Made by a program: the position numbers and the translations under genes
Origin: an uncultured Pelagibacteraceae bacterium
GTDB lineage: Bacteria; Pseudomonadota; Alphaproteobacteria; Pelagibacterales; Pelagibacteraceae
Reading direction: 5' to 3'
DNA length: 64,000 nucleotides
NCBI GenBank assembly: GCA_902578935.1
Contig: CACHEU010000001.1
Span: 124,001-188,000 of the forward strand
Notes under the pieces: model-generated
The model's input: the letters and a program-made list of their open reading frames with translations, nothing else
Told to the model about the DNA's origin: nothing
The model's database searches: none
Part shown: positions 32,799 to 36,143 of the stretch, piece by piece
Layout of the letters: every line of letters starts with the position of its first letter
How positions within the stretch are numbered: the first letter of the stretch is position 1

Positions 32799-33884
32799 AT
32801 GAAGAAAAAGAAAAGAAAAATAAAAAAAAAAGCTAAGACAAAAAAGAGAAAAAATAGAATATCCAGCAAAACAAGAAAATCTCGCAAAACAAGAAGAAAA
32901 TCAAAGACCAAAAGACCCAAAGCAAAAAAAAGAAAAAAATCTACAAAAAAATTAGATGTTGAAAGCTTCATAAGTTCTTTAAAACCAAGATTTACTTTTA
33001 ATCTACAAGAATTTTTAACGAGATTGATATCTCCACTAACCGATAAAATTCGAGATTATAGAATAAACAAGGAAAGATTAAAAATTAGACAGAGAAAAGA
33101 AGAAGAAGAGCAAAAATTACACACATCACTTAGAACAGAGCTTCTTAAAAAAGAGATTAAAGAAGAGGAGGCTTTAGCCAAAATTCGAGCAATAGAATTG
33201 AAGAATTTTTTAAGAGAAGAACAAAAAGCTATTAGAGAAAAAGAGAAAGAGAAACAAAGAAAATTCTTAGAAGAAGTAAAATTAGAAAAAACTTTAGAGA
33301 AATTCAGAACAAGAGAACTTTCTGAGATCAAAGCCATTGAAAAATATACCCTAAATTTAGAGAAAGAAGATTATAAGGCTTTCCAGAAACGAATCGATGA
33401 AGTCAGAGAAAAATACAGAGCTCTTAGAAACGAACGTCTAAGAAAAAGAGTGGAGGAATTAGGCGTTACACTTTCTGATCAAGCAACTGTTGAAGAGATA
33501 CGACAAAAAGAAAAAGAATATCTTGAAAAAAGGGAACTAATAGCAACAAGTTTGGAAAGTTTTACTCGAAGTGCCACGTCTCTCGTATATCAGATTAATA
33601 AAAGATATTTGCCAAAGAATGCAGACTTGATAAGAGTAATTAACCTTGTTTATGAACAATCAGAAATTCTTATTCGAGAAGACCAAGAACAAAATGAAAA
33701 TTTTTTAATATTAATTTATGTTAAGGATCAGGATGAAAAAAAAGAAATTATAGTAGAAGATAAAATTAAACAAGAAACCCGAGAGTATAACCGTAATTCT
33801 ATATTTAAATTTGGGGACGATTTAACAGACAGTTTAATTTTATATTTAGAAAGAATTAGAGAAAGGATGAAAAAAGCTAGTTAA
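32799..33884 (+). CDS. Hypothetical protein with very Lys/Arg-rich N-terminus and charged coiled-coil middle
   Basis: 34 of the first 51 residues are K/R; followed by extended E/K/R-rich helical sequence and an apparently globular C-terminus. Confidence 0.8.
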   Translation: MKKKKRKIKKKAKTKKRKNRISSKTRKSRKTRRKSKTKRPKAKKRKKSTKKLDVESFISSLKPRFTFNLQEFLTRLISPLTDKIRDYRINKERLKIRQRKEEEEQKLHTSLRTELLKKEIKEEEALAKIRAIELKNFLREEQKAIREKEKEKQRKFLEEVKLEKTLEKFRTRELSEIKAIEKYTLNLEKEDYKAFQKRIDEVREKYRALRNERLRKRVEELGVTLSDQATVEEIRQKEKEYLEKRELIATSLESFTRSATSLVYQINKRYLPKNADLIRVINLVYEQSEILIREDQEQNENFLILIYVKDQDEKKEIIVEDKIKQETREYNRNSIFKFGDDLTDSLILYLERIRERMKKAS

Positions 33885-34956
33885 TAAGATCCTCTAATTT
33901 TTTAATCTCACCGATTTTAAATATAACAGCATCTTCTTTGTTATATCCAAATTTCTCCGCATTTGCTTTAAATCTAACCGGAGGTTCCCAAATTGGTTCC
34001 AAACTTAAGATTGCTGTGCCCCAATGCATTCCTACTACTTTTTTAACTTTTAAGTCTTTCATTAATGATAAAAGTTCTTCAGGGTTTGCATGAGCTGTAG
34101 ATTTGTCTTTAACATTTATAATCGGAAAAAAATTGTAGGCTCCAATATTTCCAAAGCCTAAATCAATTGGACCAAATTTTTCTCCTAAATCTTTATAGAA
34201 AGGCGCAGGTCCAGTATCACAAGCAAAAAAGATTTTTTTACCTTTATATTCAATTAAAAAACTACCCCAAAGACTTCTATTTGTATTTCCAACTCCCCAT
34301 ATCCAACGCTTGCTCCAATGTTGGGCCGGGAGCATTGTAACTGTTATATCATCATTAATTTTAATTTTGTCAAACCAATCCATCTCTTTGACATTGTCTT
34401 TTTTGTATCCATTTTTTGTAAAATATTTTCCAAGTTTTAAAGGAACAAGTGCTTTAGCGTTTTTATAAGGAAAGTTTTTTATTGTACGAATGCTCATGTG
34501 ATCATAATGATTGTGTGTCAGTAAAAATAAATTTATCTCAGGAAGTTCTTTCAGGGTTAAAGGGGGCTTGACATATTTTTTAGGGCCAAACCATAAAGGT
34601 CCATAATTTTTTTCAAAAACTGGATCGGTAATAATCGTAGTGTCTCCAAGTTTAATAATAAAGTTTGTGTGATCAAGCCACATAACATACGAACCTGATT
34701 TATGTCTTTCAAGATTTTTTAAAACTTCTTGTTTATCAATTACATGCTCAGGCGGATAATCAATTTTCAGTTTCTTTTTTTCTTCTCTAAAAACTTTCCA
34801 ATTCCATTTAAAATTAGGATCTCTCTTTGGACCACCTGCTAAATTTCTAAAAGCAAATAGCTTCCCGTCTTTGTATATGTGGTGATAAGGTTTTTCCATT
34901 GCACCCAAACTATTAAAAGAAAAGAAAAGAAGTATAAATAGGAAATATTTTAGCAT
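33877..34956 (-). CDS. Metallo-beta-lactamase-fold hydrolase (NAPE-PLD/UlaG-like), secreted
   Basis: 'LFLLTHNHYDHMSI', 'ACDTGPAPF', 'VVGMHWGTA'; N-terminal signal peptide. Confidence 0.9.
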   Translation of the reverse strand: MLKYFLFILLFFSFNSLGAMEKPYHHIYKDGKLFAFRNLAGGPKRDPNFKWNWKVFREEKKKLKIDYPPEHVIDKQEVLKNLERHKSGSYVMWLDHTNFIIKLGDTTIITDPVFEKNYGPLWFGPKKYVKPPLTLKELPEINLFLLTHNHYDHMSIRTIKNFPYKNAKALVPLKLGKYFTKNGYKKDNVKEMDWFDKIKINDDITVTMLPAQHWSKRWIWGVGNTNRSLWGSFLIEYKGKKIFFACDTGPAPFYKDLGEKFGPIDLGFGNIGAYNFFPIINVKDKSTAHANPEELLSLMKDLKVKKVVGMHWGTAILSLEPIWEPPVRFKANAEKFGYNKEDAVIFKIGEIKKLEDLIN

Positions 34957-35054
34957 TCGGTGTCTTTTTTATCGTTTTTAGAATTAAAATTCACGATTAA
35001 AAAAGACACCAATAGTGCGGCAATACCAAGCAGGGTAAGACCAATGATGATCAT
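34950..35054 (-). CDS. Putative 34-aa single-TM microprotein (MIIIGLTLLGIAALLVSFLIVNFNSKNDKKDTEC); not in supplied ORF track
   Basis: ATG at 35054-35052, TAA at 34952-34950; hydrophobic helix followed by a charged tail; stop overlaps the ATG of the MBL gene (ATGCTAA). Confidence 0.6.
   Translation of the reverse strand: MIIIGLTLLGIAALLVSFLIVNFNSKNDKKDTEC
34959..35010. repeat. Inverted repeat / strong hairpin (ggtgtcttttttatcg ... cgattaaaaaagacacc)
   Basis: 16-bp arms complementary apart from one bulged base; sits within the 34-aa ORF, adjacent to the MBL start codon. Confidence 0.8.
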
Positions 35055-35078
35055 AGTTTTTTAAACTGTCCCTAAAAA

Positions 35079-35297
35079 TTAAGATTTTTTAGCTACTTTG
35101 GGACAGTTGTCCTTGGAAATTCTCTTTCCAAAAGATTCATCGCTCATAGTTTTGTTTACAGACCAAATGAACGATTTTTCGTAAGCACCAGTTGCTTTGT
35201 CTGGTGATGTGCATTTAGTTCCGAAAACGTATCTATTGCTGCAGTTTACGAGCAACAGAGAGCATACTAGTAAAATTAAAATGTTTTTCATGGTCAA
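35079..35297 (-). CDS. Small putative lipoprotein, 72 aa
   Basis: 'MKNILILLVCSLLLVNCSNRY' lipobox. Confidence 0.65.
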   Translation of the reverse strand: MTMKNILILLVCSLLLVNCSNRYVFGTKCTSPDKATGAYEKSFIWSVNKTMSDESFGKRISKDNCPKVAKKS

Positions 35298-35345: not shown

Positions 35346-36143
35346 TTATGCGTCTAGAATAATTCTGTGCATTAGCCTTCTACCAACAAAAGGAGTTGCG
35401 GAATGAATGATAGAGTGATTATCCCAAACTACGATTGAATTTTTCTCCCAAGAAAAGCTGGTTTGGAACTCTTTTTTCGTTTGGTGGTTGAATAAAAACT
35501 TCAAAAGATTTTTAGAATCTTCGTTACTTAGATTTTTTATGGCAATTGTATGACCCGGACTTAAATATAAAGTTTTCTTATTTTTCACAGTTTTAACGAT
35601 TGGATGTTCAGATATAAAATCTTTAGCTTTTCCCGTTCCTCTTTCGGCCTCCCTTTCAACCCGTGTTTCTGAAATAGGACCAGCAGAACTAAAAATTCCA
35701 ACAAGACTTTCTATCTTTTCTTTAGTTTTTTGATCAAGGGCCTCATAAGAAGCAAACTGTGAGGCAAATAAAGTTTGACCCTGGTCTTTTTCTACTATTT
35801 TTCCCATAAGACATGTATATCTCGGCGTTTTATCTAAGTAAGAACTATCGGTATGCCAACCTTCGCCGTATGATTTCCCCTTATCTTCTGCCTTTCGTTC
35901 CACAACCGTGATGCCCTTATAACCTTCGAGATCTTTAAGCATGGGATAGTCTTTAATTTTGCCCAAAAGCTTTGCAAACTCTAAATATTTTCCAGGATCT
36001 AAATTCTGATTTCTAAAGCAGACAAATCCGTAATTATTTAAAGCTTCTTTAGTTTTTTCCACCCCATCAACTTTTATAGATTTTAAATCACAGACAATAG
36101 AGGCGCCTATGTTATTTTTAAACGGTTCTATTTTAATGCTCAT
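35346..36143 (-). CDS. TauD/TfdA-family Fe(II)/2-oxoglutarate dioxygenase
   Basis: 'GEGWHTDSSYLDKTPRYTCLMGKIV', 'VVWDNHSIIHSATPFVGRRLMHRIIL'. Confidence 0.92.
   Translation of the reverse strand: MSIKIEPFKNNIGASIVCDLKSIKVDGVEKTKEALNNYGFVCFRNQNLDPGKYLEFAKLLGKIKDYPMLKDLEGYKGITVVERKAEDKGKSYGEGWHTDSSYLDKTPRYTCLMGKIVEKDQGQTLFASQFASYEALDQKTKEKIESLVGIFSSAGPISETRVEREAERGTGKAKDFISEHPIVKTVKNKKTLYLSPGHTIAIKNLSNEDSKNLLKFLFNHQTKKEFQTSFSWEKNSIVVWDNHSIIHSATPFVGRRLMHRIILDA

Follow-up and report, generated by a model that had tools for sequence, protein, structure and literature searches.

Why does a 34-codon open reading frame (ORF) persist in front of, and overlapping, a gene for a putative lipid hydrolase, and how might the translation of the two be linked? 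The question is raised by a 64,000-nucleotide (nt) stretch of SAR11 (Pelagibacteraceae) DNA, hereafter the window (contig CACHEU010000001.1, positions 124,001 to 188,000). The small ORF occupies 34950..35054 of its minus strand, from an ATG at 35054 to a TAA ending at 34950, with the translation MIIIGLTLLGIAALLVSFLIVNFNSKNDKKDTEC. A first-pass annotation, made from the letters of the window alone, had described it as a membrane microprotein translationally coupled to a metallo-beta-lactamase (MBL)-fold gene, and its coordinates, sequence and translation matched ours exactly. We propose, with a probability of roughly 0.6, that the small ORF is a translated leader microprotein gene, acting as a cis switch that couples hydrolase translation to its own through the opening of a hairpin. 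The evidence is comparative throughout, and the genomes compared are mostly incomplete single-cell assemblies.

Conservation of the small ORF upstream of the hydrolase gene

The predicted product has a single, strongly hydrophobic segment and then the residues NSKNDKKDTEC. Its maximal 19-residue Kyte-Doolittle hydropathy is 2.82, supporting the earlier description of a single transmembrane helix (predicted at residues ~2-22) with a charged tail. We infer that the peptide is inserted into the membrane, possibly with a function of its own there. The small ORF and the MBL gene are co-oriented, and the MBL ATG at 34956 overlaps the small-ORF stop by 7 nt (ATGCTAA, 34950..34956, minus strand). Most relatives in the genus have a 4-nt overlap, ATGA, and locus L022 has GTGAATAA; in the lineage of the window, the TGA reads TGC, which extends the small ORF by one codon to the next stop, TAA, and the overlap survives. 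ATGCTAA had been read as a coupling geometry, and the relatives support that reading with a mostly more classical form of it.

Two of the checks that the annotation had suggested, for conservation upstream of the MBL orthologue and for frameshifts or stops in close relatives, came out in favor of the small ORF. The hydrolase gene is held by 25 of the 31 genomes in the genus, and in all 25 the small ORF lies immediately upstream with an open frame of 33 or 34 codons, free of internal stops and indels. Its start codon is ATG, or GTG in L008; this GTG start and the TGA-to-TGC change both preserve the frame and the overlap. The six remaining genomes are not evidence against the small ORF, because in one the contig breaks inside the lipoprotein-like gene directly upstream, and five are also missing the next gene upstream, for a TauD-family dioxygenase. 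While the small ORF is without indels, the distance from the lipoprotein stop to the small-ORF start ranges from ~10 to 24 nt.

The small ORF is represented by 20 distinct sequences, with amino-acid identities to that of the window down to 45%. The ratio of nonsynonymous to synonymous differences per site (pN/pS) is 0.46 (bootstrap 0.35-0.62). When the alignment columns were shuffled, the mean pN/pS was 0.82, only 3/1000 shuffles gave a value as low, and 0/1000 were stop-free. A profile search of 197 family genomes yielded no convincing match to the peptide outside the genus; the matches were weak and partial (E >= 0.003), many of them with stops. As a known family, the peptide has no NCBIfam match, and a Pfam Gram_pos_anchor match below the cut-off (E 0.05) reflects merely the helix and the charged tail. 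From these comparisons we take the small ORF to be a real, previously unlisted gene, with the caution that its conservation has in part another cause than the peptide, as described below.

The downstream gene (33877..34956, minus strand) encodes 359 amino acids (aa). Its MBL fold, claimed earlier, was confirmed by the Pfam family Lactamase_B_2 (E 5e-31), and its best solved relative is human NAPE-PLD (4qn9, E 1.2e-49, residues 85-354); UPF0173 and UlaG-type lactonases are weaker matches. The HxHxDH (HNHYDH), QHW, DTG and HWGT motifs align with the metal-binding motifs of this characterized enzyme, so that the gene product is a putative lipid-hydrolase-like relative of NAPE-PLD. Unlike human NAPE-PLD, it is bacterial and begins with a signal-like segment, MLKYFLFILLFFSFNSLGA, and thus looks exported. 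Our literature search found no paper linking NAPE-PLD and SAR11. A Shine-Dalgarno-like 4-mer precedes ~10 of 68 genes in the window, and none is found at the MBL gene. The small ORF is intact even in L024 and L025 (genomes G004 and G030), where the hydrolase is only 39-42% identical to the others. In a sister genus, g4, the same small genes are likewise followed by ~60% and 87% versions of the hydrolase. These patterns suggest that the hydrolase gene has been repeatedly replaced.

A conserved hairpin inside the small ORF

The main feature, which the first-pass annotation had overlooked, is a strong, conserved hairpin within the small ORF. Codons 15-33 are predicted to form a hairpin of 19 bp, interrupted by a single bulge (z score -5.2). 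Its core is a perfect 13-bp inverted repeat, in which 34998-35010 pairs with 34959-34971, and which stops 2 nt short of the hydrolase ATG. The 5' arm (34993..35012, minus strand; TTGGTGTCTTTTTTAATCGT) lies inside the small ORF, and the 3' arm (34957..34975, minus strand; ACGATAAAAAAGACACCGA) covers the ribosome-binding region of the MBL gene. Among 67 gene starts in the window, that of the MBL gene (95 nt around it) is the most structured, with a z score of -5.4 compared with -3.2 for the next, and the hairpin site ranks in the top five 60-nt stretches of the 64 kb for stability.

The hairpin is predicted in every relative sequence, and its stability goes beyond what the encoded peptide needs. 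With synonymous recodings drawn from local codon usage, 0/500 were as stable in nine of 14 sequences and at most 12/500 in the rest. In addition, the synonymous differences per site (pS) amount to 0.21 in the stem-loop half of the small ORF versus 0.32 in its first half. Stem cells of the alignment are paired in 96.5% of cases in the main clade, clade A, and in 91.5% in clade B, a divergent subclade comprising L008 and L022-L025. Changes on both sides of a pair occurred once in clade A and twice in clade B, one of the latter in the inner helix.

In clade B, TGTCTTTTTT or a close variant of it is displaced upstream by 11 nt and read in a different frame, and this shifted 5' arm still pairs with the same 3' arm, which thus partners two different 5' arms. 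The shifted arm encodes different amino acids (VSFL versus AVFF), so that conservation of the 5' arm appears to concern the nucleic acid and not the encoded residues. Either two compensating indels or two origins could account for the shift. Because the hairpin imposes a constraint at the nucleotide level, the peptide cannot be taken as the sole reason for the conservation of the small ORF. Of the "microprotein" in the earlier description, the conserved ORF and the membrane helix stand; action of the product as a protein does not follow from them.

Other identities of the hairpin were considered and rejected. A terminator or attenuator was ruled out, since the stem is followed by GAATGCTAAAATA and not by a T tract, and no terminator-like site was found at 34950-35060. 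Rfam gave no match above the gathering score, only weak matches to microRNA models that are typical of any hairpin. Nor is it a mobile or repeated palindrome: the pattern occurs solely here in the whole genome, read once per strand.

A coupling model and its alternatives

In our model, codons 15-33 of the small ORF would fold in the mRNA into the 19-bp hairpin, whose 3' arm would cover the whole ribosome-binding region of the hydrolase gene and block free initiation there. A ribosome translating the small ORF would unwind the hairpin and terminate at the overlapping stop, and the same or the next ribosome would then start on the hydrolase ATG. Translation of the hydrolase would depend on, and follow, that of the membrane microprotein; the small ORF probably must be translated for the hydrolase to be translated. 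Directly supported by the comparison are the conservation of the ORF, the overlap, and the hairpin, with its location relative to the start codon and a conservation exceeding what the codons require. Translation of the small ORF and the block on initiation would follow from these: the predicted structure encloses the downstream ribosome-binding region within reach of ribosomes on the small ORF, and the small ORF and the hairpin are both conserved (25/25 genomes, with the pN/pS and recoding tests). The translational coupling claimed at first pass is still a deduction, but the burial of the downstream start region in a conserved hairpin within the small ORF strengthens it. From the sequences, coupling of the RNA-unfolding kind would be the simplest account.

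Several observations weigh against this model. When each of the 14 sequences had its own codons permuted, 2-38/500 permutations gave an equally good fold, since UUU codons for Phe and AAA codons for Lys pair readily. The near-invariance of the stems leaves little covariation: 14 of the 19 clade A pairs never change, and the shuffle control was not exceeded. In codons 2-11, outside both stems, a pN/pS as low was reached in 146/2000 shuffles, which is suggestive only. The sister genus has the same hydrolase gene without such a hairpin at its start, and gating is therefore not a general need of this gene. Finally, L021 (genome G020) has ACG in place of the hydrolase ATG, which could be either a rare start codon, or a mutation or sequencing error in a single-cell genome.

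The most credible alternative, which we nevertheless consider rather unlikely, is that the 33-34-residue peptide serves primarily as a membrane protein, such as an anchor or a regulator that acts together with the lipoprotein or the exported hydrolase; the overlap would then set the stoichiometry and the hairpin would be secondary. The hydrophobic helix and charged tail are indeed kept down to 45% identity, and hydrophobicity is clearly retained in the codons outside both stems (1/2000 shuffles). The sister genus, moreover, has a conserved 57-61 aa single-helix microprotein of unrelated sequence at the corresponding position, flanked by the lipoprotein and hydrolase genes, suggesting a recurring protein role, but many sister-genus genomes have no microprotein there. 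Against this alternative, the codon choice of the small ORF is constrained by the hairpin. In addition, the peptide is kept in front of the exchanged hydrolase of L024 and L025, and a dedicated partnership between peptide and hydrolase is therefore unlikely.

A regulated arrest or leader peptide of the MifM or CutF type, in which ribosomes stalling upon membrane insertion or in response to a metabolite would open the hairpin and switch on the hydrolase, seems improbable to us. The layout is that of CutF-stem-loop-CutO in Rhodobacter capsulatus, also an alphaproteobacterium, where the gene of a small exported protein precedes that of an exported enzyme, whose start is shielded by a stem-loop (PMC9973294). 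The SAR11 pair resembles it in having an upstream small ORF for a membrane-targeted or exported product, an RNA structure shielding the downstream start, and a downstream enzyme that looks exported, and CutF-CutO may be regarded as a regulated cousin of the present arrangement. However, inspection of the alignment revealed no stalling sequence that would let the nascent chain emerge: the peptide has 33-34 residues and the stem starts at codon 15, so that a ribosome stalled at the start of the stem carries fewer than 20 residues, all within the exit tunnel, a chain presumably too short to sense membrane insertion. There is no arrest motif and no Pro-rich C terminus and, unlike CutF-CutO, SecM, MifM and VemP, the small ORF has neither a stalling motif nor a metal-binding motif. 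The CutF-CutO stem-loop lies between the two genes, whereas the SAR11 hairpin spans the middle of the small ORF, and the hydrolase start has no Shine-Dalgarno sequence to shield.

Least of all do we favor a hairpin serving as an RNA-processing or stability element (an RNase site, or 3' protection of the dioxygenase-lipoprotein mRNA) with the ORF an accident of its arms: the nucleotide-level conservation of the hairpin would fit, and a U-rich arm encoding hydrophobic residues with an A-rich arm encoding Lys makes a pseudo-membrane ORF cheap, but the start and stop codons, the 33-34-codon length, the hydrolase overlap and the freedom from indels are all kept, as are pN/pS and hydrophobicity outside the stem, stop-free frames arose in none of the 1000 column shuffles, and the stem is not followed by a terminator-type T tract.

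For the coupling model, the closest published parallel is found in the filamentous phage f1, whose pVII is a membrane peptide of about 33 residues. Genes VII and IX of this phage have a -4 spacing with overlapping codons, and a hairpin ends just upstream of the IX start (PMC12548453); the small ORF and hydrolase pair also has overlapping codons and a hairpin before the second start. The SAR11 pair differs in being chromosomal, in a streamlined marine bacterium, and in having an exported hydrolase downstream instead of a capsid peptide. No sequence relationship between the two is expected, and the coupling in SAR11 is predicted from sequence. The small ORF and its hairpin would allow the RNA-unfolding model of coupling to be put to a clear test outside phages. 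SAR11 cells are among the most abundant in the ocean and have few regulators and genomes of ~1 Mb, in which a conserved small ORF that is at the same time an RNA gate would offer an inexpensive way to control a gene. Very small genes get missed in SAR11 genomes, and conservation of such ORFs should not be taken as evidence of protein function until overlapping RNA structure has been tested for.

The corresponding slot in the sister genus

The g4 microprotein is like the small-ORF peptide in its position and in having one membrane helix followed by a charged tail. Homology between the small-ORF peptide and the 61-aa peptide was rejected (hhalign probability 9.7%). Unlike the small ORF, the g4 gene has its N-terminal codons in a 14-bp terminator-like hairpin (AATAAGGGGTATGAACTTACCCCTTATT), with the ATG in the loop, and no hairpin lies at the hydrolase start. 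The locus was found 60-240 nt upstream of the hydrolase (L076, L114, L138, L162-L165, L168 and L169), and other g4 genomes have only a similar terminator-like hairpin in the slot. It is possible that the g4 membrane microprotein was born from a terminator.

A broader idea can be offered only as a long shot: that SAR11 membrane microprotein genes arise and persist inside hairpins before the exported lipid-hydrolase gene, since a U-rich arm gives a hydrophobic helix, so that one sequence would serve as both RNA gate and membrane peptide. Two genera would have arrived at this independently, each with a peptide unrelated to the other's, and in the genus of the small ORF the gate would adjust hydrolase synthesis to the state of the membrane without a protein regulator.

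Neighboring genes

Directly upstream of the small ORF lies a small gene (35079..35291, minus strand) for a 70-aa lipoprotein-like product with an LVNC lipobox, which has homologues beside the MBL gene in g1 and g4. It belongs to no Pfam or NCBIfam family and has three conserved Cys residues and a YEKSFIWxV motif; a length cut-off could miss such a gene. A second inverted repeat (AACTGTCCCTAA / TTTGGGACAGTT, 35064-35108) lies around the stop codon of the lipoprotein gene, immediately ahead of the small ORF, and is poorly kept in relatives. The TauD-family dioxygenase gene (35346..36143, minus strand; PF02668, E 5e-52), identified also by synteny, is probably in the same transcription unit. A DUF3047 gene is also found upstream, in the same orientation as the lipoprotein-like and dioxygenase genes. 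On the other side, convergent to the hydrolase gene, a Lys/Arg-rich ORF of 361 aa (MKKKKRKIKKKAKTKKRKNRISS...) occupies 32799-33884 of the plus strand; it matches no convincing Pfam family, and its identity among relatives ranges from ~28 to 79%.
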